Below, one piece after another: positions 395-64,000 of a stretch of DNA of 64,000 bases (its first letter is position 1; the number at the start of each line of letters is the position of its first letter). A program made the position numbers and the translations under genes. Below the pieces are notes generated by a model that worked only from the letters and a program-made list of their open reading frames with translations, made no database searches and was not told the origin of the DNA. The stretch lies in contig JAKZAN010000135.1 of assembly GCA_023053545.1 (NCBI GenBank), positions 1 through 64,000 on the forward strand, read 5' to 3'. Source of the DNA: Lepidurus packardi. Taxonomy: Eukaryota > Arthropoda > Branchiopoda > Notostraca > Triopsidae.

Positions 395-1067
395 TCAGCA
401 GCATTTAGAATTCCCGTTCTTCTTCTTCTTCTCTTTCTTGACCTCCATACCCTTTCCTTTGCCTTCGTCTACTGTCTCCTTGACGTTGTCCAACTGTTCT
501 GCCAGAGTCGTAAACAGTTCCTACAAACCATCCATCCATCACAATCACTCACAATATGCCTTACGTTGATGCCTTTATTGTCCTTGGCGCTGGTGTATTT
601 GAACACTGCTCCTAACTCCTTAGCATACTCCATTGCTTCCTTGTAAGGAACTTCTTCCTTCTACTTCAGCAGGTCGATCTTGTTTCCAACGATTGCCAAG
701 ACTACAAATTCCGGTAAAAAGAGTTAAAAGTACGGATATTCTTTGGTCCGTTCTCTTTGAGCTATGCGATCCAGACCTTCATGGCTTCGAATGACTCCCT
801 ACTGTTGACATCGTAGACGACGACTGCGATACGTGCGTCCTTGTAGTAGATGCGTGCAATAGCCTTGTATTTCTCCTGGCCTGCGGTGTCCCAGAACTGG
901 AACTTGATGGACTTGCCGTTGCCGTAACTATAATGTTTTTCGAAGAAGACTGCGCCCAGGGTGGACTCCATGTAGTCATTAAATTGGTTATTGACGAATC
1001 GTATTGTAATGCTGCTCTTGCCAACTCCGATGCTGCCAATGACAACTACCTTTGCTTCTTTGATCAT
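395..1067 (-). CDS. Rab family small GTPase (Rab5-like)
   Basis: A small GTPase of about 198 residues that would direct vesicle traffic. Visible motifs in order are the P-loop GSIGVGKS, the switch region ESTLGAVF, WDTAGQEKY, GNKIDL, TSAK and a C-terminal CC for geranylgeranylation. The EST-GA-F effector segment resembles Rab5/Rab22. Two introns restore the frame: 702-733 (32 nt) and 521-564 (44 nt), both GT-AG. The TAG at 762-764 falls on the glutamate of the WxxEL helix that follows the switch regions in Rabs. The stop is TGA at 395. This is the first gene inside the telomere, about 230 bases from the repeat. The exact Rab subfamily is uncertain. Confidence 0.95.
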
Positions 1068-1265
1068 TATTCGGTATGGGGTCTGTCTAGTGCTAACACA
1101 GTATTGATAAATCTAATATCTTACTATCAAACAGACGATACTAAGTTAAAATCTCCATAAACCACCCAACCCATATTACTCTCATCCCATGGTAAGCTGC
1201 CAGTCCTATCAATACAATGCTACTAAATTACTCTAGATACTTACTCCATTCTACTTTGTGACTTC

Positions 1266-2243
1266 TCATATGCGTGTCCCCAGCCAGCTACTCACTTCTG
1301 GTACCACACTATAAATCTATCGGTCAAAACAGATACTGTGCCATGCGTCCTTCACAAAGAAGTGCGTCTTATCTGTGCTGCAGCTTTCCCTTTCGAAGTC
1401 TCTAATTTGGAAAGGATCGATAGTCTTGTCCACTCCGCTCTGTACAAAAAGATAGGGCTTATCAAACTCCTTAAACAGAGTTCTGGTGGCTGGCATAAGC
1501 ATCTGGAGTGCCTTGAGAGTGCCGGCACGCATATCACCGTTGTAGATGAAAGGGTCGGCTTTAATTTTGTCGATGAATAATGTGTGACGCGTGCCTGTGG
1601 TATAGGTAGGAGGGAAAAGGGATGACTCAGGTAGGAACATCATCTGTAGGTAATTTTTCCAATTCAGAGTAAATCTAGGGATGGGAGTGCGGATTAGGCT
1701 CGGACTGAATAGTAAAACTCCTGCGTAAGAAAAGGTTTTGCGCGCAACCAGATTTACACATAGTGCCCCACCTAAACTCAGGCCACAGAGGAAAACCTTC
1801 ACTCCAGCATAACGATACTTTTCCAGACCCCATCTAATGGTCTCTTCAGCATCGCTAATCATCTATCCGGGAGACGGAAGGAGGCCGCGAACACTCCCTC
1901 CAGATCGACCGAAGTTGCGAATGTCCATCCCGATGACGAGTATACCGTGCTAATTGCGGAGAAAGTCTGCTAAGTAGCTCATGGTTCCTACATGACCATT
2001 GAGTCCATGGAACAAGAACATGATGGCTTTGGGCTTCTGGGCAGGCTCCCAGACAGAAAGAGCGATTTGAATGGGTTGGGCGGATGGGACAGAGATTTGG
2101 TGGATATAAGTGGGGGGAATATCTGTGTATTGGAAGTCTGTGTGTTCGAGTGGCACTTTGGCGATGGCATGATTGTAGTGTAGTCTTTACTGTTCAGGGA
2201 TGAGCTTGAACTAGTGGTAAGATCGGGTGTAGTGATTATCCAT
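1266..2243 (-). CDS. Alpha/beta hydrolase (monoglyceride-lipase-like)
   Basis: A serine hydrolase of about 325 residues, likely acting on acylglycerols or other esters. It has the HGLNGH oxyanion motif after the first core strand, DIRNFGRSGG, the nucleophile elbow GLSLGG (Ser in GxSxG), an acid residue in SGVDKTIDP and a histidine in DAWHS, so the catalytic triad looks complete. The frame contains several TAA/TAG codons read as Glu and ends at TGA 1266. The ATG at 2243 was chosen because it gives a usual N-terminus. However, the same frame continues upstream without a stop into the next feature, so a longer protein is possible. No signal peptide is evident. Confidence 0.85.
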
Positions 2244-3245
2244 ATGGGAGAAATGTGAGTATGAGATGTTTTGCTTCTTGAAGATATGGGCTAAAGTTTC
2301 GAACTATATGTGGGGATACTAAAATTCAGAATAATTGACAAATGCTGATCTTCTGGATTCTAAGGGAAAATAAGAATAGAAATGATCCACTCGAAGCCTC
2401 AAAAGAGGAATCATAGAAATTTGGGTCTGGTCTTTGATAAAGCAGAATACACCATCCTGCGACTGTTCCCGTGCGGCTATCTCTCCAGTCCTAGCTCTTT
2501 GCTGCCACTGTGCACGGAAGACATGATTTCCAGGTTGCTGAAGATCGAGGGTTGTGTGTTCACCCGGTTGATTTGTCTATGACAGATACGGTTCTTACTA
2601 AGGCTAAAGTTCATCTGATACCAGTATTTGTTTCTGTTAATGTTAGATGGAAAGTAGGAAGAACACGAAGTAGTCGGATAGGGATTACTTGACGGAAAAT
2701 AGGACTGTTGAGTGGGTTGTTCTTGGTGTGGTCGTTCCATCGGATGAGCTCCTTCTTCAACTGCCGGACTGACTGTGCCTCCTGCATCATGGATACGGTG
2801 TTCCCGATGGTATTGCTGTACTTGCATCCCACATCTATTCTTTCCTCTCTGATGGGCGTTTCGTCGTCTCGGTACTCTTTGTTCACGAGTCCTTCTGTTT
2901 CTTCGTCAAACATCTGCGTCCTGTGATACTGATAACAAGAAGCTTGACTTCCCTAATGCAGTGTGATTGATAAATATGGGGAGGTTGAGACTTATGTGTG
3001 AAGTAAAGAAGCTTGTTCTTTATAGACTTTTGTTGCCGGTGTTTTCTCATTTGTTCCCTGTGGTCAGCCTTGGCAAGTTAGATGTCCTGCAGCTTGTGGA
3101 TTAGATTAGTAGTATTTTTGGCGAGGGAGGGGTCGAGGTTGGAGTTGAAGTTTCTGAGGATGCGGTTGCCAGGAACGATAATGACAGTCCTTCGGGAGTT
3201 GTAGGCGCCATCGTCCTGTGTCTGTTTCTCGAGAAGGTCATTCAT
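2244..3245 (-). CDS. Unidentified reading frame upstream of the hydrolase
   Basis: The frame starts with ATG at 3245 (MNDLLEKQTQ) and runs through two GT-AG introns, 2921-3027 (107 nt) and 2634-2688 (55 nt). It is polar and rich in Glu and Gln, which speaks for coding. I do not recognise a family. After the second intron no TGA appears before the start of the hydrolase, and the two lie in the same frame. This is therefore either a separate gene whose true 3' end I could not find, perhaps through a missed intron, or the N-terminal 280 residues of one 605-residue protein ending at 1266. The exon sum over the whole stretch is a multiple of three. Confidence 0.45.
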
Positions 3246-3557: not shown

Positions 3558-3558
3558 A

Positions 3559-3963: not shown

Positions 3964-4406
3964 TAGGGTTGAAAGATCGAGATAGTCTTGTTCTTTGTCT
4001 TTGAAGCAATAAGGTAAAATTACAGGGTAAAGGCGCTGGGATTTAAAGGATCTATCGATCGGTGCCTTCGTCGATCGTTTATGCTAATTAAACATAGTCC
4101 AATATCTCAACTATGCTTATATACAGTAAGGATACCAATATTGAATGAAGGAGTAGCTCTACCGCCTCCCTCTTTCGTAGTAAGCCTTCCCTCACTTTCA
4201 TAAGTACGGTTTGTGTTCTCCCAGCAGTTAGCTTCGGGGTTACCTTGATGTGTCGCTGTAAAAATACCTTATCAGCAGACTATCGACCTCGCCTCCTTCA
4301 AATCTATGTTCTTCATTTAGGTCCTTCATTCAGCTCATGCTCTACCTATTGTTATAATTATAAGTGTCTTTTTAAACTAGAATCCCCCTCATTATAATCG
4401 CCCTAT
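3964..4406. other. Intergenic region (divergent promoters)
   Basis: AT-rich spacer between the divergent small membrane protein gene and CDC40. I see no ORF of coding character, RNA fold or repeat in it. Both promoters must lie here. Confidence 0.5.
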
Positions 4407-6135
4407 ATGACTTCCAAACAGGCTCCCCCTCCAACATAATAACCTGCCCAGCCGTCTCCTCTGCCCTCAGATCAGGAAGAGGACGAGATCGCCAACAAGT
4501 ACAGGTCGTTACCTATTGTCGTGCGGACTACGCCCGAAGTCGACATAACCTCTGTCGCCGTGCAAAAATACCACGAACTCAAGCAGAATTACCACTTCGT
4601 CAGTTTTGAATAAGCTGACACTCACAAGCGTGAAACTCACACGGGCATCCTCGAGCCCTATGCTCTGCCTAACTTCGATTTCAACCAAGAGTTTGTCTCG
4701 TTTCAGAAGAACGGGTTTACTGCTAACCCCAACACGAACTTCAAGGGACTCCTTTTTAACGAAGAAAAGCACCCCTAGTTTAAGAAGATGGTCGATCAAC
4801 TCGGAGAAGAAATTGGAGAAGACCACCCTGATTTCCTGCAGAAGATGTACGCTCAAACATGCAAAAAGGTCAAAGCGTAGAAGTCCAAGCTTATCAAGGG
4901 TCAGAGAGAAAAAGATGGTGAAGGATTAGCGTACGCAGGACCTTGGGCTGGGTACGGTGAGTGTCTGATCAACACGGGACTGACCGAGGAACAGAAGGAA
5001 GCCCTGGTCAAGGCGGAAGAACGCAGAAAGCAAAAGATTGAAGAAGCAAAGAAGGAGGAATAACGCTTCGAACCGTTCTCCACATTCCACCTCACAAACT
5101 TCTATGACTATAAGGGGAAGTCATACTTAGAACCTCCTTCAGACTTTAGACTGAAACGCGAAGTGTCCTATATTCCTAAGAAGCAAGTCCATACCTATAT
5201 TGGCAGCAACATCGAGGGCTACCAAGTCATCAAATTCTTCCCCAAGGTCGGTCACTACTTCCTGCTCGGAAATGCTGAAGGCCACGTGAAACTGTTCGAT
5301 GTCTACAAGGGACGTGACTTGGTGCGTACGTACGTAGGCCACACCAAGGCTATGAGAGATGTGGAGTTCACTAACGATGGGAAGCATTTCTTGAGTTGCA
5401 GTTTCGACCGGAGTATCCATTATTGGGACACTTAGTACGGAAAAGGTAAATCCTATTTTAGTCATTCTATAATGTCTTTTATTCTGTGCAGTGTCTTCGA
5501 CTTTCAAGCTCAAAAAGTACCCTTTCTGCCTGCGGTTCAACTCATAATTCGACAAGCAGAACATCTTCTTAGTCGGTTCCAGCAGCAAAAAGGTTTACCA
5601 ATTTGATGTCCGCACAGGCACAAAGGTGTTGCAGTATGACCAGCATTTAGGCACAGTCAATACCATCACCTGGATCGAGGACCGTAAGTTCGTCACTTCC
5701 AGCGATGATAAGAAACTGTTTGTGTGGGAGTTCGGAATCCCTGTAGTCTACAAGCATGTGTCGGAACCCGAAATGCACGCAGTGACAGCTGCGACTATGC
5801 ACCCTAATGGCGAATACTATGCAGGCCAGAGTTCAGATAATCAGATCGCTATTTACGAGTCGAAGGCAGGCAATTTCCGCAGGAACAGAACCAAGAAATT
5901 CGGAAACCACTCCTGTGCTGGTTATGCTTGTGGTATCAGTTTCAGTCCAGACGGCCAGTTCCTAGCGTCGGGAGATGAGCGGGGAAGGTTGTTCTTCTAC
6001 GACTGGAAGACAGCGAAGAACTATAGGACTCTGGACGCACATTCAGGTGTTTGCATAGGAGTGCAGTGGCACCCGAACGAACAGACACAGGTGCTGACTT
6101 GCGGCTGGGAGGGTCTTGTGAAGCTGTGGCAGTGA
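4407..6135 (+). CDS. CDC40: Pre-mRNA splicing factor PRP17/CDC40
   Basis: A WD40 protein of about 560 residues of the catalytic-step spliceosome. The N-terminal third carries the family's GPW and YDYKGKSYL motifs. It is followed by the repeats, where YIPKKQVHTYIG, RTYVGHTKAMRD, the DDKKLFVWEF repeat, HSCAGYACG and the final CGWEGLVKLW align closely with human and plant CDC40. One GT-AG intron at 5446-5491 (46 nt) is needed. TAG at 5433-5435 falls at the Glu of the WDTE turn. ATG at 4407 is the first in frame, and TGA at 6133 is the stop. Several TAA/TAG codons in the N-terminal half read as Glu. Confidence 0.97.
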
Positions 6136-6453
6136 TATAATATGAGTGCTATGTTATAAAAGATGTTTCGGGTTAAGAAGATATCTACATATTGATAATT
6201 TTGGACATTGGGAAGGTGGTGGAGGGAAGAAGAGAGTAGATTTTTTGAATTGGTAATTCAAGATATAGTGTAGGGGAGTCGAGGATTTTTTGAAATTCCT
6301 ATCAAAATACACATAAGCGAAGAATCTATCAAGGAGTGTTGTTCAGTTTTTAACTTTAGGTCATTTCAAAGAGTCGCACATACCACTGTCAGAACCAGCA
6401 AATACTTCAAATACTATACACTTATTAGGAATTACCCACACACACACTCCTCT
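6136..6453. other. Intergenic region
   Basis: AT-rich spacer between two genes in tandem. I see no ORF with coding character, RNA or repeat. Confidence 0.5.
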
Positions 6454-9400
6454 ATGTCCCAGCCTCTCACTCTAGAAGACATCCTCAAATAAAAATAATC
6501 ATACTCAGACTTCTCCGAGTCCCCATCTGAAACTCTCGAAGATGTACTTAATGAAGTACTCCTCGACGAACAGGAAGAAGACGACTATACTGACGACTTA
6601 TTCCAGGATACACTCGAGCCCTCTGAAGACTATCCCCTCGAAGACTAATCAGCAGAAAACCAACAGCTACGCCAGGATTCCGAGTCTGCCAAAAGGTCAG
6701 GCACCTGCAAGTCTCTCTCAACTCTATCCATGATAAAGCCATCTTCTCAGGGCATGCGCCGCTACTCTCGTATCAAAGACATGGCCATCAAATCAGAATT
6801 ACTTGATAAAAATGCTACAGAGGTTCTGTTGACTAATGTAAGCCAAACATTCGAGACAGCCAATAAGAGAGCGGTGGGAGTTGGTGTGCCGACGTGCCTC
6901 TGGTCAACCAGTTCGAAGTTTCTCGCCGTCGGTACTGGCTTATCCAATGTGGCTGTCTTCGAAGTCGGCGTTCGAGATTTTAGGCTTTTGCAGGATAGGG
7001 TGAGACGAGGAGCTGTAACGACTGTTGCCATCGGTTCTGATAACAAACTCCTAGCTGCAGGCCATGAAGATGGAACTATCAATTTGTGGGATTTAGGGAA
7101 TTTCACTCTCGCTAAGACCATCACGTCGGCCGACCTACAGTTAAATTCCTCGTGCTGCATAACAAAAGTTCTTTTTTGGAAGCAGTCAAGTGAGCTAATC
7201 AGTTTAGACACGACTGGCACGATCTTAGTGCATAGCATACAGAGACATCTTTGGACCAGCACAACCAGCAAGAAACTCTTTAACAACATTCTCGTTTGCC
7301 ATGACATCGTGGTGGGTAGACTTGAAAACGGAGTATCGGTCGTCCTTTTCGCAGGTCTGGAAACTGTATTGATGGTCAGCATGGAGCCAACTGTCAAGGT
7401 GTTATTCAAATTCGAGAGACCCAAGAATCAGACAGATGATAAAATACCGAATGTGGACATTGGTAGGTTGAAGGTTCGGGGACAGATGAGCGATATTGCT
7501 GTCGTGAGCTGGGGCCATACTTTCTACCTGTACGAAAGAGACCCAGCAGCACGCGAACCTTCTGATATGTTTAGTATGACAGCTAGCCATGATTTGAAGG
7601 AGGCACCCATGAGTCTGCAACTAATTTCGGAAAACATCCTAGCTGTATTGGATGAGCGCAATCGCTTCACAATTTATGATTTGAGGGAGCTGACGAACAA
7701 GGAAACGGGGGGCGTCCTATACGAATCGCCCAACCTGTACGACATCATTTCGCAGAAATACCTGAACGATAAAAAGGGCAAGGAGCTCAGGCTTAACACA
7801 AATACAATCGTCAAGTGTTCAGATGTCTACAAGTAACTGTTTTTTCTGGCCAAGGACGGCGTTCATCGGTTGCGCATGCATCGATGGACTTAGTTCATAC
7901 ACTTCCTCCTCGAAAAGAAGGAATGGCTCCAGATGCTCAAGATTACCCTGTAAATATTCAAGGGTAAGTACAACAAGTTTGTTGAAGATGTAGCTATCTC
8001 CCCCCTCACCTTCAAGCTCATGAACGAAATGGTATATGTCTACCTCAAGGCACGACTTGAAAATCTCGCATAAAGGGAACTACTTTCAGTCAGAGCCGGG
8101 GAGGAGGAGTTAGAAGAAATTCTGGACACAACAATGGAGTTCTGTCTTGAACTCAATAGCTACTAGCATCTTTTTGGGTCCATCTATCAGCTTTGTGAAC
8201 ACTACTACAAGATCTCGACAAAGTTCATCTAGTGCCTGGGTCCCTTCATAGAAGCCGACCTCATCAAACAGTTCCCGAACAAAGCTCTACTCAAATAGGT
8301 GATGACATTCTACGCGTAACACAGGGTGGAGTTAGTGGACAGACTGGTTTCTAATCTGCCGCAATAGCACCTCGAATACTTCACAGTTGTGGATATCTGC
8401 AGCAAGTACAAACTGTACAACAGTCTGGTCTATGTAAGCCAACTGCATGGTGACTTCGTAACTCCTCTGAACACTTTGGTCCGTGAATGCATCCATCTTG
8501 CTGACCAGGGGTACCAGGAAACCAAAGTACAAGCCTATCACTACCTCCTCTATAAATTCATTCTGAATGCAGTCGACGGCAAGACTGTGACTGGTAGCTT
8601 TATTCCCAAAGCACACCACGAGCGTGCCCTCCGGAACATTCTTTCGTGGATGCTTATCGCTGAGAATGTGAAGTACTTACTGGAACAGGATACCTAGAAC
8701 TACTTCAATACTCTCCTCCGCGTCCTTAATGATTCCGACACCCTCACGATTTCCCATGCATAATTGTAGCCCATCCATTTCTAGCACTCCATACTTGATC
8801 CTCTTCTAGAAGTCATCGAGAAGCAGCCTTCTCCCTAATCTAAACTCCAGATGCGCTCGCTCGTAAAGTTAGTGGTTAACATCAACGTAGGCTGGTAGCT
8901 CGCAGACTAAACTATCATTTGGACTCTTTAGAACATGCCCCAAGATATTGACATTTCTTCACTGATAGCCTTCATTGACCGCAATTACAGTTTCCTGTCG
9001 GGTCAACACAGCTACTCTAAGCTTCTCGAAAAATTGCCTCCTGCTGCTGCAGCTACGTTCTACATTCGCGACCATCAGTTCTCAAAAGCCGTTGCACTGT
9101 ATATCCAGAACCCCGAGACTGTTCCGAAAAATATTTTATTGGATAATCTGAGTAGCGACTTCTTTAGTGAGAGTGGCGACAAACTTATCCGCATCGACCC
9201 CGATGTCTCTGCGCTGTTCATCATCCGCAACTTCGACTCTGAACAGATCAACGCCATCGTCGACAGGATCGACAAGAACTCCATCAGCAAGTTCATGCTA
9301 GTCAGAAAACTAGACAAACTCGATGTCAACAACAATATTCAGTGGAAACAGGAGATTCTGTCAACCTTTCTCGAAGCTTTGGCCAGATACACCAGCGAGA

Positions 9401-10389
9401 GACGGGTTTTGCACGAACTCCGGAGGAATCGACTCGATACTCTCCAGGCTATGCAGGTCGTCACGAAGTATCACCTCAAGGAATGTCAGGCATACCTGCA
9501 CCGAGCAGACAAAGAGCCACATCTAGCAGTTCCTCTGTACATAGAGTTATACGTGAAGACCTTCAGAGAGGATTTTAGTGCTATTCTGAAGTACAAATAC
9601 TCATCAGGACGCCGACTGAGGAAGCTGTGGAACTAACTGATGCAGACTCTCAGAGAAGATACGAATCCGAGTGCATATTGGCAGAAAATAACTCCCGTGG
9701 TCCTGGGATGTCTAGTCTAGCCGTTCCCCAGAAAAATCCTCGGGGTTGAAATGCAGCATCTTTCGAATAAAAAAGGTATCCATCGGCAGTTCCTAGAGAC
9801 CTACTTCCGCATCCTCTAGTCCTTCTTCGTGAACCTCTCCTTGCATCCCCCAGAGTTTTCTCTTTAGAATCTTCTGTGCGAGTATTGGAGTGCTTTTTCT
9901 CAGCCCTTCCTACGGACATGCCTGAGGAATGCCTTGTATCAATGCAGGAGTGAAAACAATCTATCGCTGCTCTCCAACAGTATTTACCTCAGAGACATTA
10001 CAGACAGCTTCGCTCAGACCATGTACTAGAAGACAAAAGGCACTAGCAGTGTCCCTGTCTGTCGCAAGTGCGGGACTGGGTTTTCCAAGACTGAAACCCA
10101 ACAACTTTTTAATTGCGGTCACAGCTTCCACGAGGGATGCTGTGAGCATGAGGGCTAGGACTGCGTGTGCAGTCTGTGCAACACTTTTAACAGTCTGAAA
10201 GACGGAGATTGGAACAGTCGGCAGACCAATTTGGGGCTGAGTCGATTATCAGTGACTCCAGTAAAGGCAAGGATGCCAATGAGTAGAGCAGCAGGAATGA
10301 AGGGGTGTGCCTTTACCTACTTGGCAGTTGACGAGATCGTGAACAACGCTGAGAAGGAAATTGATAGTTTGTTGTTCTTACTACAGTGA
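6454..10389 (+). CDS. VPS8: CORVET tethering subunit VPS8
   Basis: A protein of about 1311 residues in one uninterrupted exon. It starts with an acidic, Ser-rich N-terminus and continues with a beta-propeller (VPTCLWSTSSKFLAVGTG; AVTTVAIGSDNKLLAAGHEDG). A long alpha-solenoid follows, including the segment VVDICSKYKLYNSLVYVSQ and the conserved LDTLQAMQVVTKYHLKE block. It ends with a C-terminal RING (CRKC, CGHSFHEGC, CSLC) that binds zinc. This order and length match VPS8, the Rab5-binding subunit of CORVET on early endosomes. Around 25 internal TAA/TAG codons hide the gene from standard translation. Stop is TGA at 10387. A Rab5-like GTPase gene lies 5 kb upstream; that is thematic only. Confidence 0.93.
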
Positions 10390-10731: not shown

Positions 10732-11165
10732 ATGTACAAAGTCGAGAGCACCACCGAAGAACCCATCGGCAGCAAATAGAGAAAGTCCCAGGAAAAAATG
10801 CGTGAGTTCCGCGAATACCTTGTCCAGAAGGATGTCGTTCTCCTCATCGTCAAGTGTACCCTATTCATCTTACTCGTACAGTCCTCTTGTCCATTAAGAA
10901 TGCTAAATAAGAACCCGAAAACCTCACCAAAGCTTTTGTTGAGTATCTGGGGAACGTACAGACCGACCATTCGGAGTTGGACGCCCTCAAGCAATCCTTC
11001 GACGAGCAAGCCTCGGTGCGTGATCAGTTGATGAGGGAGATCGAAACAGTAAAAAAGTAAATACAAGGGGTGAAGGAGGAGAAGATCCGGAAAGAGGAGG
11101 AAGAGCGACTGAGGAGGGAGTAGGAGTAGGCGAAGAAGGCAAGCAAAAAGCCAGGCAAGAAGTGA
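10732..11165 (+). CDS. MYCBP: MYCBP (AMY-1) homologue
   Basis: A protein of about 135 residues. The core REFREYLVQKDVV, then FLLSIKNAK, EEPENL and AFVEYLG aligns with human MYCBP (REQFRRYLEKSGV ... EEPEKP ... LDFLKHHLG). It is followed by a Glu/Lys/Arg coiled-coil tail with a C-terminal KKPGKK. In other organisms MYCBP binds AKAPs and is found in axonemes and at centrosomes. One very short GT-AG intron, 10856-10881 (26 nt), restores the frame in the middle of the conserved helix. TAA at 10908-10910 corresponds to a Glu of EEPE, which is strong evidence for the codon assignment. Stop is TGA 11163. Confidence 0.92.
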
Positions 11166-12815: not shown

Positions 12816-13105
12816 GGCGCTTTAATTAGTAATATAGATATTGGGAGTATGGGACACTGGCTACGGGTGCAGAGTGGTCAAATACAAAGTCTTAATGTTG
12901 GGCTGCGTCGCTCCTAATTTCCTGGACTCCTGCTATGGCTCCAGGTAGGCAAAACTATTGCATTTTAGTTATCATGTGTCGTACTAAAAGCCCAACTAAT
13001 TCATCTGAACAATCCTAATGCAATTCAAAATCATATATTTAGAGCAAGAGTCCATAGCCAAATAATACTGTCTTAATTTAAAATATTAGCACACCCTTAT
13101 CCTTC

Positions 13106-50448: not shown

Positions 50449-50914
50449 TGAGTGATTAGCGGGTAGGATGGCACGAACAAAAGTGTTGAGATAGTCAGGC
50501 AGCAGAAAGAAGGACCCATCAAAACGCTATCACGCATCCAACCGGGCACAAGAATTCTAGACAAAATATGGGTAGAGGTTTGGTTAAGTTATCTAAAAGC
50601 GGGCAGATTTCGATAAGCTCGTTCGCAAAACAAGAGGGAAACGGGGAAGAAGTGGGATGAGCACCTACGGCCTCAAGGAGGAATTTCCTAACCTCATATT
50701 ATAGGTGATCATCGATGTGCAATGCCTACGATAAAATTTGAAAGTATACTCTAACAACCTGCGCGCTACTGTCTCTTTCTGGCACGTATTCTATATACTT
50801 TTATCCAGTTTTAAATCCATAATAGTTTTGGTTAGATTCAGACAATTTTCTGAAACTGGTTTATCTGGCTGGCCACATCATACTATCCTTTGCCAACTAT
50901 GTATCGGTACGTCC
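50449..50914. other. Intergenic region
   Basis: About 470 bases between the coiled-coil gene start and the end of the next minus-strand gene. It is AT-rich with no coding frame that I trust. The coiled-coil gene promoter should be here. Confidence 0.45.
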
Positions 50915-53900
50915 TCAGGCATGGTAATGATACGGGTTCGAGTACTGCTTCAACTGTCTCCACAGTGCCACACTCTCTTATTCGTCGTCCAGCAGCTAGG
51001 CTTTCCCCCGCGAGTCTAGCATCAATTTCGCCCACCCTTTCACTTTCTATTTCTCCTTGAAGTTTAAAATGAATTCCACCTCGGACTTATAAGCTTTGAG
51101 ATTCTTGGGTTCTGAAAGGATAAGAGCCTGTAGGAGTACAAACTTATTCCTCTCATTTTGACCTGCTAATTCTTCAATAGTTTTCAGGTCAAACTTCCTA
51201 TAGTAGAAAAGTCCCGAAATTGTCATCATGGCTTCGCGATGCAGTTGAGGGTTTTCCAAAAGACTAAGCAATAGATTGATAACCTTCTTGTAGTTATCGG
51301 CAGTCTGGAACATGAAGTTGTAGGGGTACTTATGAACACCCAAGTAGTGAGAGGTTTCTGCAACTGGCCTCAAAAGAGGAACTATTGCCCCCAAAACCCC
51401 CTCGAATTCTGCAGGTGAATATATCTGGCTAAGAATGGACTGGAGAGACGCCGTGAAGAGAGTCACTTCTGTCTTAACTTCCTCTCTATTGCTGATTATC
51501 CACTAAATAGCTATTTTCAAGAACCTGATGAGGATGAGGTTGTTGTAATGAGTCTTCCTGAGTCCTGCGTATGCTTTTAGAGAGTCGAATAGGATGTTGG
51601 CTCCAACTTTTCTATCAGTGATGAAGTCGCTCTTGAGGAGCTTTTAGATAAGGTTTTGAAGCTTATTCTAGAACTCGAACTCTCGAACACAGACATAGTA
51701 TTTGCCAAGTTCCTCGGTGAGTCTGCCGTCTGCTTTTAATTTTTCGATATTGAGCACACCACATTCTTGGGCAGTCTCCGTATCAATAACATGCTGCTCA
51801 GGGAATCTGATTAAAGCTTTAAGAAGTTTGATAAATGTGGGGTTCTAAAGGTTGACCTAGGCAAGAGCATTGTTGCTGCTGCAGGCTTCAGCTACCCTCA
51901 AGAAAAGTTTGAAGAGACCAGGATAATAATTGGAGTTGATGATCGAGAGCAACTCGACTGCGCGGAAGTAAGTCGACTGAGTAGGTTGGTAGGATGATAA
52001 AAACTTCTCCAAGAACGAATCGCGGTATGCCCCCACGAGCAACCCTCTGCCCCTAATCAACTTTTCGAAGACAAGGAAGAAATGTCCTGCTGAATTCTCG
52101 ATCACTTTCCTGATGACCTGGATGATGAACTATTCCAGCTCCTTTTCACCATCTGGGAGAGTGCTTCGGAGCTCACTGTACTTGATAAATAGAGCATCGA
52201 AGTAATTCATGACAACAATCTGGCTATCCATCATCTGTAGTTTGTTGAGGGCTTCTAGTACGAACGATCTGGTAGCCCTGAAGAAACGCATACCTGAGCC
52301 CAAGTCAGAATTAAATATCTACTTAAAGTATCTCTCCCCAACGAATCGCTCATAGATGGTATACTCATGATTGGAAAGAACTACTCTGTCATTGAAAAGC
52401 AAGAAAATACTATTGAATAAGTCTGTGAGCTCAGTTATCTCCTTGAAGCTGATTCTTTTGGAAGCTATAAGGTCTTCTTCAGAACTGATCTGATCAGTCT
52501 GGTAGGTTTTCATCAAGCCGAGACACTTCTCAGGTTCATCGAAGAATGGGAAATAGCTTTGCATGCTGACTCGTTCCAGTTTTGTACACTCTTTGTAAGG
52601 TCTATAGTCCCTCAGCAATCTTCTCTTCTCGATGATAAGTTTCTGGTGCTCAGATCGGATGTAGCCTGTTTCCAAAAAGTCCCAAAGGTCCTTTTCGACG
52701 TAATCCGTCAGGCATGTAAGCTTCTATCTCTTGTCTATGGCTTTGTGATGAGTATACATCAGTCCAGCAACCACATACATCCCGAATCTTCTGCAGATGT
52801 AGTGCTAAGAAAAAATAAGAGGCTCGAAGATCTTGTAAAAATCGGAGTACTGCAAAGGCTCGTGATGGTTTTTGGCGCACAAGCAGAGCACCAGTCCCCA
52901 CACTAGCTGCTGTTTGGGATCCTTATTCTTTTTACATTCTTCCCTGACGATCTCCTGCAACTTCGATATGTCTCCCCGGTCATCACAGATCTTGATGATC
53001 AGGTTTTTAAGAGCCGGCAAATAAGCTTGTCGAATACCTCTCTCTGGCGAGTCGACATGCTTTACACAGGCTCGGAACAGCTCTAGAAGCTCAACAAAAG
53101 GGATCTAGATTTTTGTCTTATTGACAAAAGCCCGTACGACATTGGCTACTTTACTATGGAATTTCTTGACCTTTTCGATAACTATTGTGAATGGGGCTTC
53201 GTAATTAATGAGCTGCAGGAGCAGGGGAGTCAGGGAAGCCTGGAACCTACGGCCGGATAAAAATCCTTCGCCTTCATCGGGATGCATAATAAACATGAGG
53301 AGATGTTTTTCGAGTATCTTATGTTTTTCCTAATTCTATTGGAAAACCATCGAGTGGTTTAGTTCCGAGAGCTTGCACTCGACTTCGTAAATCGACATGA
53401 TGTAGTCGATGAAGCCTTCAGGCTCACCAGATTTCTGCACTTTGTGGACTTCCTTGATATGTCCCTTTTGCGAATGGAAATAGTATTCTTCGTGATCGAT
53501 GATATTCAGGACGTTGTTAGAAAGGTTTTCTAGCAGCCGATGGTCCTGGCAATACTTCGTGAAGGCCAGTCCGAACATCTTGTCCAGAAGTACAATGAAC
53601 TTATCACGCATTCCCGTGATCTCCTCGTAACTATCAAAATGAAGCTCCTTGAGTTTTGGCTGTCGCGAGACCACACGCTTGTGGAAAGGGATCTCTCTCA
53701 GAATGGTCTCCAGGATTTCGAGCTTCCAAAGACACCTCTTTCGGAAAACAAAATCAATGGGATAGGTTTCGAAATTTATGTTGCAGATGATTGTGATGGG
53801 GTCTGAAACTGGAGGCACGCCTTCTGATCTGGCACTTACTTCAGCTAACAGCTAGTCGTAGTAGTGGTTCCAGAGGGATGTCAGCTACTTTATGGTCTCG

Positions 53901-56133
53901 CGATTTCTCTGCTCTTCATAGTTGATTAGCTGGATCTCAATCTTCCCCTACCCGTACAGGTACTCCAGGCTCGAAGGCAATGGCTCGTATCTACAGCTGG
54001 TCTCAAGTCGTCGATTACAGAATCGGTGAATTGCAGTGTGTATGCTTCCTACAGCATATTGAGTGTCGACTTCTCCGATAGCTTGCAAATATTGTTTGAA
54101 CTGTTCGAAGGTAGCTGAAGCACACACAAGGACGAGCTCGTTGATACGACGTTCTTGCTGCTCTCCTTTGTAACTAGCCAGGTCCAAAGTAATGAAATCC
54201 TAGATGTCAGTAGCTGGGATTTCCGTATGATACAGAAAACTGAGGATGTGGGAACTGTGCCATTCGAGGTATTTCTCACAAGCATGATTGACGCAACGCT
54301 TTAAGAAGTGTTTGTGACTGTTGAACGCGATGGATAGGAATGGGTTGTCGAGGAAGCTATAGCTAACTTGCTCTTTCGTCTAAGTTTCCTTTATGAGCCT
54401 CTCAAAAGCCGAGAACACGCACTCCGAATACCTCTCATAGAAGGCATCGTGAACGATACCAAAACGGGTTGCAAATTTTTGTTTGATAATTTCATCAACG
54501 GCAAGGTAGTCTTTTTCGTCTAGAACAGGAAGCTTAGACGTAATGTAATAGACCACAGACCAGCCATGCTTAATATAACGAATTTTAAGGATTCCTTAAA
54601 GAATCCTGAGAATATTCTGCAGTAATGTCTCTCGCTTCCCATAGGCAATTAGGAATTGTACGACTTTCTTAGTGTTCTTCATCAGAATAGGGACGTTGAG
54701 TTCAGGGACAAGCACGCCTTTCAGGATGTAAGGAATCGCTTCTTCAGCCAGTTCAGGGAACAATGTGAAGGTTACTTTCAGGATCCTCGACGCTTATTTC
54801 AGTTGCATAAAGAAGAAGTCGTGCAGTCTGGCTTTAAGTTGGTTCCTCAGTTCGTCCAAGACTTCTTGCGGAAGTTCATCCTCCAATAAATGCTGCAACC
54901 TCTTGATCTTAGCCTCCATGTCTTTCTGGCTGGGCTTTTCGGCTTCTCCTTCATCACCTTACTCTTATTCTGACTCATCATCATCTTCAGAAGCTCCTAT
55001 AACGATGAATTGGCGGACAAGTCCGATCTGCTCTTCTTTCTCCTACTCCTTTTCGTCGTCTGAGTCTTCGCCTTTATCCTTTTCGTCTTCATCAAGTTCC
55101 TCCTACTTCTCGGGCTGTTGAAGCTTAGCGAGTTTCTTCTTATTTTTGAGTTCCGTCTGCCTTCTTTTAGAGAGATAGGAAAGAAAGACAGCGAGTAGCT
55201 TTGTTGGATTTTTGATTTAGTGGAGTGCCACTAGAGCATTTTTAAAGATCTCAAAAAACAATCTGATGAGCTCGACTGAACGTGTGTTGTTCTTGCCAAT
55301 GATGTACGCCAGATGCTATCCAATAATTCTTGTACTAAGAATCTCTCCTGTGCCTTTCTCTCTATTCTGGATCAGGATGATTTTGCGGACTAGCGAGTCA
55401 TTCAGAGATGGCAACAGTTCCGCAACGGCAAACCCAGGTACCCTCTTCTTGATCTTGATAATCCATCTCCAAAGATACATGTCCCGCGTGCCTTCGACTT
55501 CCATGAGTTCATAGACTTCGCGCAGGAATTTGGTGACTACCGAGAGGTCTGACTCTCGAGTGATATTCACAAACTGCTCCAGGTACATCCAGACCATATC
55601 AGACCCGAAGTCGTAGCGCCCTTTGAAGTGATGAAGCACGTCCAGGGCATTGTCTTTGTTATAATATCTACGTAGGATGGCGCCGAAGGAGTAGAAGCCA
55701 TTGAGTTTGCTGGCCTCTACTTTGGAGTCCTCGAGTTGCGCGATAATTTGGCGCCAATCGAGGGTGAAGTCCTCGAGCTTAACATTGGCAGCTTTCAGAA
55801 TTTTCAGGGAGTACTTATCCCGTATGTGAATATTTCTCAGATCATTTAGGTCACGTTATAAAAAATCTGGCAGCCAAAATTACAATGAAGCAGAACTTGT
55901 TTACATTTGAAGATCTAGGTTTTCAGGGGCTTCGGCATCGACCCCAGGGCTTTGCGAGAAGTGATGTAGTTGTGCAGTCTCTCCAGCTTCACATTGGTAT
56001 CGTAGTCGGTCGCGGAGGGAGCTTCGCGGAGGGATTGGAATGTGGTGGAGATGAGGGTGTCGAGGTTGTCTTTGATGGGTTTTTTTGCATCTTTGAAAGC
56101 ATGCCTGTGGTTGGGAATATACTATCTCTTCAT
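50915..56133 (-). CDS. Very large alpha-helical repeat protein, unidentified
   Basis: A gene of 1727 codons with one intron (55867-55904, 38 nt). ATG at 56133 gives MKRQYIPNHRHAFKDAKKP. The protein is mostly regularly spaced amphipathic helices of HEAT/ARM character (for example DMYLWRWIIKIKKRVPG, ALVALHEIKNPTKLLAVFLS, FVLEALNKLQMMDSQIVV). It is interrupted near residues 340-400 by an acidic low-complexity stretch (DEDEKDKGEDSDDEKE). Aromatic residues are frequent in the helices. I could not assign a family. Large HEAT scaffolds such as nucleoporins, proteasome activator PA200, cohesin or ribosome-assembly factors are possible types. Stop is TGA 50915. Confidence 0.8.
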
Positions 56134-56285
56134 AAGAGTTGGATGTAGGTGGGTCTGAAAGTACAGGAAGAGGTGTGGAGTGTGGGAGTTTAAAGAGTAT
56201 GATTGATATTTAAGAAAATGTGTATAAACAGGCAGGTGGGTAGATATGGGAGAATCCAGAATAATAGACATGCATATAAATTAAG

Positions 56286-56729
56286 ATGTGCTGCTGCTAC
56301 GATTGTAATTTCTCAAAAACTCCCCAAATATTAAAAGAGCCAAAGGAGCACAAACTCCAGGCCGCACTTTTTACACTTCCAATCATTAAGCAATATCACG
56401 CCCCCTCCTCAGCATATATACCATCAGTCCACGCCCTCTCACGTCCCATCTCTATCACGATCTCCTCCCCAGTCCACTTCTGCACACACTTCCCACTCGC
56501 CAGCACCCATCTTTCACCAACCATCACACTCTTCCTGAACTTCTACACTGTACGTGGCCATAATCAGAAATGATTGGAATTCGATAATGCAAATGACAGT
56601 TTCAAGAAGGACATCCATATGTTAGGGGCGATATTCTGGAGCGATAAAAAGTCATTAGAATAACTTAAGGATGAGAAGTTATGTCTGCATTTCTGGAAAC
56701 TTGGGTATCAGAATGTAAAGTTGGAGTGA
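56286..56729 (+). CDS. Doubtful ORF with in-frame TGA
   Basis: From ATG 56286 (MCCCYDCNF) the frame is open for 95 codons, hits TGA, and then continues in the same frame with convincing residues (LEFDNANDSFKKD, IFWSDKKSLEELKD, HFWKLGYQNVKLE) to TGA 56727. An intron from the GT at the sequence ACT-GTACGT to an AG after TTTCAAG would remove the TGA and keep phase. The CT-rich first half is weak as protein, so a relic or a start elsewhere is as likely. No family is recognised. Confidence 0.3.
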
Positions 56730-56943: not shown

Positions 56944-58496
56944 ATGGGAGAGAGGAAGGTTTGGAGCGAAAAAGTAAACCATCACCATAGCAACCATCAT
57001 ACTCTCTTGTCAATCTCCAGGAAGACCATGCACTCACTGATATCATACTTAATAAAAAGGTCACCAAGTGGAGCGCCATTTCCAAAATCATGGACAAAGA
57101 CTACGGCATACCCGGAAGGACCGGCAAGCAGTGTAGATAGAGGTAACACCCGCTCCAAACTATTCCTCAGGTGGCACAACCAACTCGACTCCAATATCAA
57201 CAAGGCAGACTGGACCGAACAGGAGGAAGAGATCCTTTTCCGCCAGCACGATGTCTATGGCAACAGATGGGCCAAAATTGCCACTGATCTCCCGGGAAGG
57301 TAAAATCTTCTGCGATTCGTCCAATAACCCCCTTTTCTATCCTACATATCAACTCCTTGTCTAGAACTGATAATGCCATCAAAAATCATTTTTACTCATC
57401 ACTGAGAAAATCAGTGCGCCGCCTCAACCGATATGTCGCAGAAACAAAGGCCAAGGGCTAAATGAAGGAGATCAAGCCCATTATGCTTTCTAAAGTGATC
57501 AGTGTGGCTGAGGATAAGTTTGAAAAGAGGCTGGGTGTAACTTAGGAACTGATCTAGGATTGTGTCGACATCAAGCACAGACTTATCCTGTACGCCAAAG
57601 ACTTCATGCTGACCGCCGAGAAGGAAGAGGAAATACGCAGACTGGTGACTGACATCATGAACTTCAATAAAAACTATAAACGCAACCGCAACAAAACTAT
57701 AGACTCCGCTCATGAGGAAGAGGAGGACTCCCACTCCCGATAGGTCTCAGAAGAAGTAGATCCTTCAGACTCCTCCAAGGATAAAAAAAAGAAAATGAAG
57801 CAGTCTCTCAAAAGCTCTCGTAAATCTAATCAAGCAGCAATAGCAACCTCTGTTCCTCTAAATCTAACTGTGAGCACCCTGCCCATCAGAGGATCTCATC
57901 TTAACGAGCCAAGAATCCCTGCGTAGAATGAAAGTCCGACTCTCAAGAAATCCATTATACTCACTGCTCCTTCAGTACGCTAATAGGATAAACCCAAACA
58001 GTCACAAACACCCATAAATCAACCAAATCTTACTCCTCTAGTACAACACAATAATGGAGAAACTGCATTCAGAAGACACCCTTCTTACAATAGAAGTACA
58101 GTTTCAGGTGATTTCCAGGATGAGATGTACAGGAAATTCGCAACGCAGAGCCAGGAGAGTCTGTGTCTGGGGGCTCAGTTTCTAGTACGTGGGAGGAGCG
58201 AGTCCGAGTTCGACCCTATCTACCCTTATGGCTCAAATCTAATCCAAACCCCTTCTCAGGGAAACTTTGATGCGGTTTTTTTAGCAGGTTTTTCTCAGGA
58301 TTTCGGATCGAAGACTATTCCCGAACACCTGCTGGAACCCCTGGATGGGAAGGATGTTGGTAACGGCGTAGGGTTCCAGAGAACAGGGAGCTTCAATCCG
58401 ATTCAACAAGCATTAAACCAGAACAGCCTTGCGAGCCAAGGATCGAATCAAAATCTGTTGGGCAACGGCATCCATTACACTAATTCGCTTAAATGA
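56944..58496 (+). CDS. R2R3 Myb transcription factor
   Basis: A protein of about 470 residues. Two Myb repeats start at the N-terminus: repeat one holds WSEKEDHALTDIIL, KWSAISKIMDK, GRTGKQCRERWHNQL. Repeat two holds [35 protein letters not shown]. These are the DNA-contacting helices of the c-Myb type. Three introns are needed: 56974-57020 (47), 57143-57170 (28) and 57300-57364 (65). The second cuts between the RE and RW of the recognition helix. TAG at 57138-57140 encodes the near-invariant Glu of QCRERW. The remaining 320 residues are Ser/Asn/Gln/Lys-rich and probably act in regulation. It would control transcription in the nucleus; targets are unknown. Stop is TGA 58494. Confidence 0.94.
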
Positions 58497-59607: not shown

Positions 59608-61104
59608 TCATATGCAGAGTAACTCTTGCAGACGTCTGCTCAGCTGGTTGCTCTCCCAGTGTTCTCCATACATTTCTAGAGCCTATTTGTTGTGTTGTCT
59701 AGCCTTCACTAAATTCCCATTCTTCAGATACCACACTGATAAATTGTAAGTCGCCTAGAATCCTCCTGCTTCCCGGTAACTCCTTTCCCCCAGGCTGATG
59801 GCTGCCTGAATATCGCCCCTTCTCGCCTAGATAACTGCGAGGTTACATAGACATTATGCATGCGTGTCCATAGTCGCTACACCATTCCTAAAACACGATT
59901 CAGCCATGTCCATGTTACCAAGGTTGATATACACGATACCCAAGTTATACCAAATATCGGCGTGAACTTCAGGCTCATCGGTTGTATCCTGGAGAGCACG
60001 TTGGAAGCAAGTAGCAAAAAGGTCGTACTTTCCACTATAGAAGCAACAGAGACCTAGATTATTCCATACATCGCCGGAGCTTATGCCGAGCTGTATCAAT
60101 CTTTGGAAGAGCTTGCTTGCGACTTCGGGTTGGTCTTAGTAGAAATAGTAGGCAGCGATATTGGCTACTGCTTCGATATTACAGTTTTATAGCTCGAGCA
60201 CTGCTTTGTAGCTATCCACAGACCTTGGGATGTTGTTCGCTTCTTCGTAGATGCGACCCAGGTACAGATTGAGAGTGACTTCATTCGAGTGATCTTTCAG
60301 CCCTTGGTTGAGCACTTCGATTGCTTTCTGCACTTGGTCTTCTTTCTGGTAGATGCGGGAGAGGTATAGGTAGGGTTCAATGCTATGCTTGTGTTTAGTA
60401 GAGGAGAAAAGCTGCTTCTCGGCATCTTTGAGGAACCCCAGATGGTAGTAACACTTTCCGAGAGCCAGTTTCCACCAGCCATCACGAAACCCTGCATTCT
60501 CCGTAGCTTCTGCGGCAAGCTCCACAGCCTTCTTGAGGTTGTGTTCGACGTGGAATAGGTACTTAAAGACCAGTCTGCAAAGATGTTTCTTTTTTTTCGC
60601 AAAGTGTTTATAGTCCACTTTATCGGAGTCGAAGAATTTGTCTCCTGCTTGCGCCAATGATGCTGTAGCGATTCGCAGTTGTCGTCCATTAGAAGTCATA
60701 GCCCCTGAACGAGTGTTCAGAAGCTTGTCGCGATCACGTACATTAGCATTGCTGCCATGGCCGGTTCGCGATTGTTGTCTACTGGTGCCCGGTCGCATAT
60801 ATCCAGAAGTGACTCTGCCTGTTTTAGAAGTGGGGCGCATCACAGGATTAGCCCCTCCCTTGGATTGGAAAGATGTTCCGATGCGTGCTATGGTGTTTTG
60901 AGTTTTATCGCTCATGAGTGTATCAGTAATGGCTTCCTCCTCGATTTCAAGTTCGTCGATTTCACACTGTTTGAGGAGGGCAGTGCATTTGAGTATCCAC
61001 GCAGCCTCGTCCTGAGGATTGGCTTGGAGCAGCTTATCGCAAGATGCGATGGTCTGTGAGTATTGGTGTCGATGGAGGCGGGAATGAGCGAGGATGAGTT
61101 CCAT
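59608..61104 (-). CDS. TTC8: BBSome subunit BBS8/TTC8
   Basis: A protein of about 498 residues (human TTC8 has about 540). The N-terminus with DEAAWILKCTALL, the Arg/Pro/Gly/Thr linker MRPGTSR, and then the TPR array (GWWKLALGKCYYHLG, KDAEKQL, YLYLSRIYQKEDQV, YEEANNIPRSVDSYK, DVWNNLGLCCFYSGKYD, DIWYNLGIVYINLGN) match BBS8 throughout. BBS8 is part of the BBSome that moves membrane cargo in and out of cilia with IFT trains. Two reassigned codons lie at family glutamates, in THA-E-CLCNLAV and AVI-E-ARRGD. One exon; ATG 61104 agrees with the family start. Stop is TGA 59608. Confidence 0.96.
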
Positions 61105-61320
61105 GAGCTCGGGAGATTTTGTGAAAAAAGTAATGTTTTATTTTAAATGAATCCTTTAAAACCCGACCTTCGGCAGTGATGCTAGTTTCTGGCATTACAA
61201 ATGAACTTCAAAAATCCAGGATTTTATTCGAGCGGGTGAGCCATTTTCGTGTCTGCATAGCTTGGCGCCCCACCCAGGGGTAGCTATAAGTCTTGGCTTC
61301 TAGATTTGTTGGGCTGGGAC

Positions 61321-62276: not shown

Positions 62277-63014
62277 ATGGAACTTAACACTGTTCAGGAC
62301 ACTACTCCAATCTAGACTGGCAAGCTCTGCGACAAGGCTGAAGATTAGATTGTCTACAAGATAGTAAACAAGAAGGTTCATGACTACAAATCCTAGATTT
62401 CTAAATCTCTCTGGCCCCAAGTCGAAATTTCCAGAAGGTCAGTCCTCATGAAGGTATCTGCGACTTTCGGCACAGCCGTCTGTATTTCGGCTCAAGGCTA
62501 CATCCTTACGTGCAATCATTGTGTGAAGGATAGAAAATCGCTGCAGGTGATCACGATTGAAGGCAAGATTTATGAAGCAAAACTAGTCTATAAAAATAAA
62601 GCATATGATCTGGCATTGCTCAAAATTGATACCAAAGATAAGCTTGATTTCAGCCCCGTTGCATCCAAAGCCGAACCAAAAGGAGCTCAACTTTTTTGTA
62701 TTGGAAACCCATCGAGAAGAGATCGATAGAGTTCGCAACCTAATGCCATAACAGGCTATGACCCTTTTTATGTTTCCGAAGGAAGCGTCAAGGGGTATGC
62801 TACAGAACAAGTGTATCTGCGTCCGAACAGCATTCTGGGCCCTCTGAAGCACGACTGTTGGACATATTGGGGTCATTCGGGGTCTCCTATCTTCAACAGG
62901 GAGGGAGAGATTGTGGGCATCCACAATAGCTGGGACTCCAAGACAGGAACGAGGAGAGGTCTGACTTGTCTGAGTATCCGACAACTCGTGAAGGATGCAA
63001 AGGTGTAACTATGA
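62277..63014 (+). CDS. Trypsin-like serine protease (HtrA/Deg-type fold)
   Basis: A protein of 245 residues without signal peptide. The catalytic triad of the chymotrypsin fold is visible: His in ILTCNHCVKD, Asp in YDLALLKID, Ser in WGHSGSPIF. Segments FGTAVCISAQGYILT and EIVGIHNSWDSKTG are the typical strands around them. There is no PDZ domain, so it is shorter than HtrA and closer to the single-domain trypsin_2 proteases. TAG/TAA codons read as Glu occur in the first 50 residues and once each near the middle and the end. The last codon before TGA 63012 follows a TAA, so ordinary translation would cut it short. Cytosolic or nuclear location is likely. Confidence 0.88.
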
Positions 63015-63167
63015 TTGATGGTGGTGCTTTTGTATTTTTGAAATCCTTGCTATTACTTTTTGGTTTCACATCATTCAATTTGAGACCTGTTAATATATGA
63101 AATAATCAAAAGGCAAGAAGAAGATTCCGACCAAGGATTGTTATCTAGTCTTGGTCTATCAACGATG

Positions 63168-64000
63168 TCAAGATTCCGCTTTCCGCATAATTAGTTTTGC
63201 CGTGGTGGATAGGTAGCTGCTCACGATATGCGCATGCTGAGTCCTTATCACAATAGTTTTGAAGTCTTCTTTGGACTTTTCCTTGCACACACAAAGCATC
63301 AGAGTCTCCTCATCCACAGACCACTTCAATATCCTTCTGATCGGTATCTCCTCGTGTATGTTCATTCGATCTGCCAACAAAATCTTTTTCGGCCTCAGAT
63401 AAACCTTGACTTGTTGCTCGGTGGGGATCGCCATAGCCATGCACAGCTTTGAGGACTCACAACTCTTAATGAAGCTGAATTTCAGGTAGGATGGGTTTGT
63501 AATGCCCTGACTCACCGTCTTTTAACGTTTTATTGACATAGCGACCAAATCACGATCTTTGAATTGCTAATGAGCCCATCCAGGAACCAAAGCCTGCGGA
63601 TCTATGTCAGGACGCTAGCGATTTAGAAGTTTGAGGCAAGCAACAGCATCGACCGTATGATCTAAGTCTAACCGAATTCTGCCAATAAAGAGGTCGAAGT
63701 AGCATTGGGCATAGCATAACTAGATAGATTCAGCGTCCGAAGCCTCAATCTCGAATGCGTACTTCAGTTTCATCATCATGATGAAGAGAGGAGGTTTGAT
63801 CTTGCCTTCTTCGTATTTCTCCTTTGCCCGTTCCCAGTATGTCAGTAGGTCCCATACGTTTCTGCTATCGTCAATGGGACATTACTGCAGCTCCTCGTTT
63901 TCGAAGTTCATGATTTCGAAGAAACCGAAGAGATCTTTGCTAAGTCTGCGACTATTGATGCCTACTTCGGCTAGCACGCTCTCCTTGATGTCATCGAAAG
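63168..64000 (-). CDS. C-terminal FERM domain of a larger protein (partial)
   Basis: The 277 residues seen run off the right edge of the window. The middle part (KPPLFIMMMKLKYAFEIEASDAESIELCYAQCYFDLFIGR) looks like FERM lobe F2, and the last 110 residues (VYLRPKKILLAD, IPIRRILKWSVDEETLMLCV, FKTIVIRTQHAHIVSSYL) look like the PH-like lobe F3. The protein ends right after F3 at TGA 63168, as in MyTH4-FERM myosins (ciliate class XIV and myosin VII/XV). Talin or ezrin types would carry further sequence. The motor domain, if present, would lie beyond 64000. FERM domains bind membrane proteins and microtubules. Confidence 0.72.

Follow-up and report, generated by a model that had tools for sequence, protein, structure and literature searches.

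Almost certainly, the window analysed here, a stretch of 64,000 nucleotides, comes from a ciliate: it covers the opening 64 kb of a macronuclear chromosome contig that is capped by telomere repeats, on which UAA and UAG (UAR) both encode Glu and UGA is the stop codon, an arrangement that equals NCBI translation table 30, the peritrich nuclear code. The meaning of UAA and UAG is directly shown by the data, and the role of UGA as terminator with less strength. The code itself is already known: PMC10553269 and PMC4967479 describe it in Campanella umbellaria and Carchesium polypinum, and no difference from it was found in the present ciliate, in which UAA and UAG are both Glu, UGA is stop, and other codons are standard. 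The new part is its instance on long telomere-capped chromosomes within a mixed assembly.

Codon meaning in protein-kinase domains

An earlier note on this DNA had claimed Glu for both codons and proposed a column-by-column count against reference families; the count was run, and its outcome favours Glu. The profile test used 83 protein-kinase domains from the same contig set, with UAR kept neutral (X). These 83 come from 136 kinase matches, of which nine on contigs C1–C6 were omitted as another organism's, five ciliate rows with TGA were excluded from the codon count and inspected separately, and the other 39 (lower-ranked or exon pieces) stayed outside the count. Both codons separately came out as Glu, UAA (n = 125) scoring +82.4 for Glu, +16.3 for Gln, and −68.2 for Lys, and UAG (n = 139) scoring +118.7, +24.8, and −41.9, respectively. 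As a control, the same method gave 61 of 61 ordinary codons their standard meaning. When genes were resampled 10,000 times, Glu exceeded Gln in 99.7% of resamples for TAA and in 100% for TAG. The kinase test supports Glu as the meaning of each codon independently, against every other amino acid.

At the catalytic alpha-C Glu, 81 kinases carry GAA (38), GAG (25), TAA (12), or TAG (6); at the Glu of the APE motif, the codons are GAA (47), GAG (16), TAA (8), TAG (4), CAG (5), CAA (1), and AAT (1). Among 71 kinase sequences below 60% identity, conserved columns place TAA opposite Glu 23 times and Gln twice, and TAG opposite Glu 17 times and Gln once. Residues of the nearest paralogue at UAR positions are Glu (121), Lys (20), Asp (19), and Gln (17). 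UAR makes up 17% of kinase glutamates, about one in six.

Two other ciliate codes must be weighed against this assignment. Table 6, the code of Tetrahymena and Paramecium, resembles the present one in having UAA and UAG as sense codons and UGA as stop, and differs from it in that UAR specifies Gln. Gln does rank second in the kinase test and scores slightly higher in some Pfam domains of the window; the kinase test nevertheless favours Glu, and with 18 UAR and no CAR at the 81 alpha-C glutamates, a Gln code is very improbable. When UAR was counted as Gln within the kinase profile (60 sequences), a self-reinforcing set-up, UAA scored 52.6 for Gln versus 48.2 for Glu, and UAG still scored as Glu. 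The second code, described in PMC10553269 for Oligohymenophorea sp. PL0344, a member of the same ciliate class, reads UAA as Lys, UAG as Glu, and UGA as stop. Its UAG and UGA assignments agree with those found here, but UAA is Glu in the present ciliate: the Lys score of UAA is strongly negative where its Glu score is positive, no UAR of either kind occurs in the 407 cells of five Lys-majority kinase columns, and 12 UAA codons stand at the alpha-C Glu, which leaves this code a negligible probability. Kinase profile scores and column counts rule out both the PL0344 split code and Gln for both codons.

In-frame UAR codons and genes of the window

C4A2 telomere repeats (1..167, plus strand) mark the start of the contig, C124 (89,009 bp). 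With TGA as the only stop, the window holds seven frames of at least 800 codons, the longest 1826; 50 dinucleotide-preserving shuffles yielded no frame of at least 800 codons (longest 508), and under the standard code frames reach at most 395 codons. Sixteen chosen long frames, 12,796 codons in all, contain 140 TAA and 158 TAG, or one UAR in every 43 codons; intron letters are part of these counts, and some of the UARs in frame mark the end of an intron. With intron letters likewise included, UAR accounts for 298 of the 1216 glutamates of the window frames, about one in four.

All seven sites for which the earlier note gave coordinates are in-frame TAA or TAG, and alignment upholds Glu at most of the family positions it had named. 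The gene for a Rab5-like small GTPase (395..1067, minus strand), interrupted by short introns, has UAG (762–764) opposite the Glu of WxxEL, and this site is supported; the TAG at the lower boundary of its 32-nt intron (702–733, minus strand, placed by eye) belongs to the intron and does not count as a codon. In the first part of PRP17/CDC40 (4149..5603, plus), UAG (5433–5435) lies opposite the Glu of WDTE in the structure alignment. An ALG5-like glycosyltransferase (34561..35300, plus) aligns both UAG (34687–34689) and UAA (34802–34804) with Glu, and its 49-nt intron (34726–34774) supplies an in-frame UAR at its end. The Myb DNA-binding repeats (57060..57430, plus; 28-nt intron at 57143–57170) likewise align UAG (57138–57140) with the Glu of KQCRERW. 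Six aligned UARs of BBS8/TTC8 (59611..61320, minus) face Asp, Thr, Glu, Glu, Glu, and Lys, and the claimed HAE and AVLE sites are borne out as Glu. A second protein kinase (26302..28923, minus) carries UAA (26572–26574) at the APE-motif position, and a ubiquitin-specific protease (15796..18975, minus) has two adjoining UARs opposite the HE of QQDAHEF. Two further claims found no support: the UAA (10908–10910) assigned to an EEPE motif in a MYCBP-like region of weak similarity (10740..11100, plus) stands opposite Ser in a single weak PDB match (E = 0.036), and none of eight UAR sites in the ABC1/ADCK atypical kinase (20162..21700, minus), described as ADCK1, faces Glu in its PDB match, a distant bacterial protein.

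The remaining features are a frame matching Hydrolase_4 (serine aminopeptidase S33-like) that contains UARs in frame (1269..2756, minus), a VPS8-like TGA-only frame of 1397 codons (6196..10386, plus), a protein kinase with an Aurora-like best PDB match (11304..12971, minus), an ion channel frame with three Ion_trans stretches (41073..44216, minus), and two long frames without a Pfam match, one of 1359 codons with 60 UAR and 162 GAR (46453..50529, minus) and the longest TGA-only frame, of 1826 codons, with 33 UAR and 154 GAR (50918..56395, minus).

Taken by itself, the window gives weaker evidence for Glu than the earlier note says. UAR sites aligned to solved structures, considering the best PDB match only for each of eight genes, face Glu in 10 of 29 cases and Gln in two. 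Over seven Pfam domains, Glu exceeds Gln by 4 bits in total; the hydrolase and VPS8-TPR domains prefer Gln, kinase 1 prefers Lys, and ABC1 is a tie, and in two domains scored with split codes TAG = Gln is slightly higher than TAG = Glu. Composition of the window does not discriminate, UAR correlating with CAR about as well as with GAR. The claim that Gln fits worse stands for most of the sites chosen earlier, but is only weakly true across the window in its Pfam domains and structure-aligned sites. An artefact of decayed genes or intron letters, to which the short introns that supply some UARs lend a little substance, has a vanishingly small probability, since intact kinases from many contigs carry UAR at catalytic positions and frames extend to 1826 codons.

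UGA as the stop codon

The earlier note has TGA ending every gene; the 16 chosen frames run from stop to stop, so such ends arise by construction. Of these frames 15 end at TGA, and the frame at 1266 was cut one codon out of place. No in-frame TGA was seen coding a conserved residue. All five in-frame TGAs of the kinase matches lie within or beside intron-like inserts, and in the BBS8 and Pelota frames TGA falls near the ends of the orthologues. As judged from these sequences, UGA is probably a stop and not a sense codon.

A possible trace of Gln at UAA

For peritrichs, PMC10553269 infers a sense-to-sense switch from Gln to Glu. UAR, and UAA especially, may still occupy former Gln positions as a fossil of such a switch, or UAA may even retain some Gln decoding, though both readings are unlikely. 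In a two-state fit, the Gln-like share is 0.31 (0.14–0.50) for UAA versus 0.06 (0.01–0.11) for GAA; with 60 sequences below 50% identity and UAR counted as Glu, it is 0.28 (0.07–0.49) versus 0.07. The nearest-paralogue count gives the fossil reading no support (UAA: Gln 6, Glu 63; GAR: Gln 65, Glu 619; p = 1.0); for UAG it is Gln 11 and Glu 58 (p = 0.095). Residual Gln decoding of UAA, hinted at by the two-state fit, likewise finds no support in that count.

Transitions from CAR to UAR could yield a Gln-like UAA share without any code change. Calibrators of such a mutational cause show the effect in two of six codon pairs and not in the other four: AGR-Arg has a Lys-like share of 0.15 against 0.04 in CGR-Arg, and AGY-Ser an Asn-like share of 0.11 against 0.01 in TCN-Ser. 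In the two-state fit, UAR also has raised shares for other residues, 0.16 for Lys and 0.10 each for Ser and Arg, where GAR has at most 0.02; part of the effect is therefore generally looser placement or intron letters.

Identity of the ciliate

The organism would be a peritrich, because Peritrichia is the one group reported, in the papers considered here, as reading both UAR codons as Glu; the label is inferred from the code itself. The C4A2 telomeres cited in its favour are not diagnostic: PMC7702705 records them in Paramecium bursaria, a feature shared with a table 6 ciliate. Several ciliate contigs have telomeres at both ends, and the assembly is a mixture of ciliate and another genome. A non-peritrich ciliate with a second, independent origin of UAR = Glu is quite unlikely, since PMC10553269 infers a single origin, within Peritrichia. 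Compatible with such a second origin, no peritrich 18S primer site occurs in the contigs within two mismatches, although some peritrichs, such as Campanella, themselves have two to four; and the eRF1-type domains PF03463 and PF03464 match, among ciliate contigs, only C219, which encodes Pelota. Neither a ciliate 18S nor a ciliate eRF1 was recovered from the contigs analysed. In this Pelota, the residues opposite five UAR sites, read by eye, are Pro, Asn, Glu, Ser, and Asp, Glu thus standing at one of the five.

The reassignment would depend on two kinds of tRNA-Glu, one with a UUA and one with a CUA anticodon, and on a release factor, eRF1, that would have lost its recognition of UAR. On contigs C73 and above, strict suppressor-tRNA patterns matched one tRNA-Lys(UUU), two tRNA-Arg(UCU), and one non-tRNA, and a relaxed CUA-anticodon pattern four further non-tRNAs; a relaxed UUA-anticodon pattern gave 207 matches, those listed reaching only into C4. 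Among the matches listed, C73 and above, there is no tRNA-Glu with a UUA or CUA anticodon, and the pattern also misses the ordinary tRNA-Glu(UUC) there.

Significance

Under the standard table, the long frames of the window are interrupted about every 43 codons, and a table 6 reading turns one Glu in six (kinases) to one in four (window frames) into Gln. The contigs reveal ciliate admixture with another genome in the assembly. Correctly read, they are long macronuclear chromosomes of a UAR = Glu species, suited to studying the inferred passage of these codons from Gln to Glu.

Reading frames and introns of the window

The earlier note had placed in-frame TAA or TAG at seven coordinates of the window, and all seven hold (7/7). 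With TGA as the only terminator, seven frames in the window reach or exceed 800 codons (maximum 1826); 50 dinucleotide-preserving shuffles of the window yield none that long (maximum 508). Across 16 long frames, 140 TAA and 158 TAG occur among 12,796 codons, a count that includes intron letters. Two reverse-strand frames have no Pfam match, one at 46453-50529 (1359 codons, with 162 GAA or GAG [GAR] and 60 UAA or UAG [UAR]) and the other at 50918-56395 (1826 codons); the former is richer in Glu codons than the latter. On the forward strand, the frame at 14589-15677 carries ricin-type beta-trefoil lectin domains (PF14200, PF00652), folds common in many proteins, and nothing further is claimed for it. 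A single tRNA gene was found in the window, a tRNA-Ser with anticodon GCT (3476-3557, forward strand).

Several window genes are interrupted by short GT-AG introns, placed by eye, as in Rab (702-733, reverse strand, 32 nt), ALG5 (34726-34774, forward strand, 49 nt), and Myb (57143-57170, forward strand, 28 nt). The AG ends of such introns can mimic in-frame TAG.

Meaning of UAA and UAG

Eight window genes, aligned to their best PDB matches with UAR kept neutral, provide 29 aligned UAR sites and one facing a gap. The facing residues are Glu at 10, Asp and Lys at 4 each, Gln, Thr, Arg, and Ser at 2 each, and Met, Ala, and His at 1 each. Of these, three Lys sites and one Gln site stem from the ABC1 gene, whose match is a distant bacterial protein; without this gene, Glu stands at 10 of 21. 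Pfam bits summed over seven window domains (14 TAA, 20 TAG) are 973.3 for Glu, 969.3 for Gln, 964.1 for Lys, and 937.7 for neutral UAR, with Glu preferred by kinase 2, the ubiquitin protease, and the channel, Gln by the hydrolase and VPS8-TPR, and Lys by kinase 1, and with ABC1 tied. When two domains were scored with split codes, the top score went to TAA=Glu plus TAG=Gln, with leads of 0.3 and 0.8 bits. Across 207 blocks, the density of UAR correlates about equally with GAR and with CAA plus CAG (CAR; rho 0.14 and 0.19). Because these window-only results are mixed, the claim that UAR encodes Glu is carried by a larger set of kinases.

This set comprises 83 kinase domains (80 from ciliate contigs, the window's own, and two more), aligned with UAR neutral, with each codon scored against the residues that the other sequences show in its column (a leave-one-out profile). 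As a control, the test recovers 61 of 61 sense codons with their standard meaning. TAA (n=125) scores +82.4 for Glu, +16.3 for Gln, and -68.2 for Lys, and TAG (n=139) scores +118.7 for Glu, +24.8 for Gln, and -40.6 for Asp. Each codon thus ranks Glu first, and the code proposed in the earlier note, UAA and UAG as glutamate, is right. Glu exceeds Gln in 99.7% (TAA) and 100% (TAG) of 10,000 gene resamplings and is favoured in 41 and 46 of 65 genes, respectively; a thinned set of 71 sequences with <60% identity gives the same picture. An alternative code known from the ciliate PL0344, with UAA=Lys and UAG=Glu (available text of PMC10553269), is ruled out because TAA and TAG were tested apart, TAA scoring -68.2 for Lys vs +82.4 for Glu.

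The plainest evidence comes from the alpha-C position, where a glutamate forms a pair with the catalytic lysine: in the 81 kinases with a residue in this column, it is encoded by GAA (38), GAG (25), TAA (12), and TAG (6). The APE column contains GAA 47, GAG 16, TAA 8, CAG 5, TAG 4, CAA 1, and AAT 1. In the six columns with a Glu majority, TAA occurs 32 times and TAG 28 times; the sole Gln-majority column holds 2 TAA and 1 TAG vs 10 GAR and 47 CAR, the five Lys-majority columns neither codon, and the four Asp-majority columns 1 TAA and no TAG. The column-wise residue count proposed earlier, run on the kinases, accordingly favours Glu over Gln. Residues facing UAR in nearest paralogues are Glu 121, Lys 20, Asp 19, and Gln 17, with no Gln excess for UAA and UAG together (p=0.35).

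The rival reading, UAR=Gln, gains ground for UAA when the profile itself treats UAR as Gln (60 sequences; Gln 52.6 vs Glu 48.2, UAG still reading Glu), which is a circular set-up; when UAR is left neutral, the same 60 sequences give UAA 51.2 for Glu and 12.6 for Gln. A two-state fit, in which every site is classed as Glu-like or Gln-like, yields Gln-like shares of 0.31 (0.14-0.50) for UAA and 0.11 (0-0.21) for UAG, with 0.06 and 0.02 for the ordinary Glu codons GAA and GAG. The UAA share could be a fossil of earlier decoding as Gln, could result from CAR-to-UAR transitions, or could reflect looser placement in general, the last being a candidate because Lys, Ser, and Arg shares are also raised for UAR. 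This signal is worth keeping as an unproven hint.

UGA and the decoding machinery

In BBS8, TGA falls four codons past the last aligned residue, which corresponds to residue 496 of a 501-residue orthologue, and the ciliate Pelota gene on contig C219 ends in EDDGF followed by TGA. A single TGA is present in each of five kinase matches from ciliate contigs, none seen at a conserved position. In four cases the kinase profile has an insert or a break at the TGA; in the fifth, the TGA lies in a variable loop next to an insert, and a GT-AG stretch of 33 nt, identified by eye, can be removed there in frame.

Reassignment of UAR requires tRNAs that read these codons and a release factor that ignores them. 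On contigs C73 and above, the matches listed for UUA/CUA anticodon-loop plus T-arm patterns are only tRNA-Lys(UUU), tRNA-Arg(UCU), and strings rejected by ARAGORN; this result is uninformative because the same pattern finds no ordinary tRNA-Glu(UUC) there. Two eRF1-domain searches of ciliate contigs returned Pelota only.

Source of the DNA

The window covers bases 1-64000 of contig C124 (89,009 bp), which belongs to an assembly of 344 contigs and 108.6 Mb that is mixed, containing a ciliate and one or more other organisms. Contigs C1-C6 measure 10.7 to 14.0 Mb apiece and hold 9 of 136 kinase matches, 4 of these 9 without internal stops. They carry tRNA arrays (Lys, Phe, Thr), and their kinase genes often lack in-frame stops; a dense block of near-identical repeats at C4:405177-474094 contains TTTAGACCTGTTTAAACCGGTTCAAACC. 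C42, C43, C44, C51, and C52 (~230-400 kb each) have tRNA genes, some tightly grouped, and C42 to C52 look bacterial. The contigs examined from C73 upward span 50 to 143 kb, none being <50 kb. Among eight with ends read, C4A2/T2G4 repeats occur at both ends of five (C73, C74, C148, C227, C240) and at one end of three (C337, C206, C169), and contigs from C73 upward have the appearance of macronuclear chromosomes. The ciliate may be associated with the organism of C1-C6, on it or alongside it, or may contaminate its culture, and some of its genome is probably absent from the assembly.

A peritrich is the likely source because the available part of PMC10553269 describes UAR=Glu in Campanella and Carchesium and infers a single origin in Peritrichia, within a class inferred to have had UAR=Gln ancestrally, before the peritrich change; the accessible portion of PMC4967479 also gives predicted codes for these two species. 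The C4A2 telomere repeats cited earlier are present at the start of the window, but as support for a peritrich they are non-decisive because Paramecium bursaria also has them (PMC7702705, in the text available). A peritrich 18S primer (from the available part of PMC4103560) matches nowhere at two mismatches or fewer, a result still compatible with a peritrich, since some peritrichs mismatch this primer and the 18S gene may lie outside the assembly.

The code found is a known one, and the surprise is small. Its value is as a clean instance of UAR=Glu on long chromosomes and as a warning for the annotation of such contigs, where a gene finder must handle both the correct code and very short introns.
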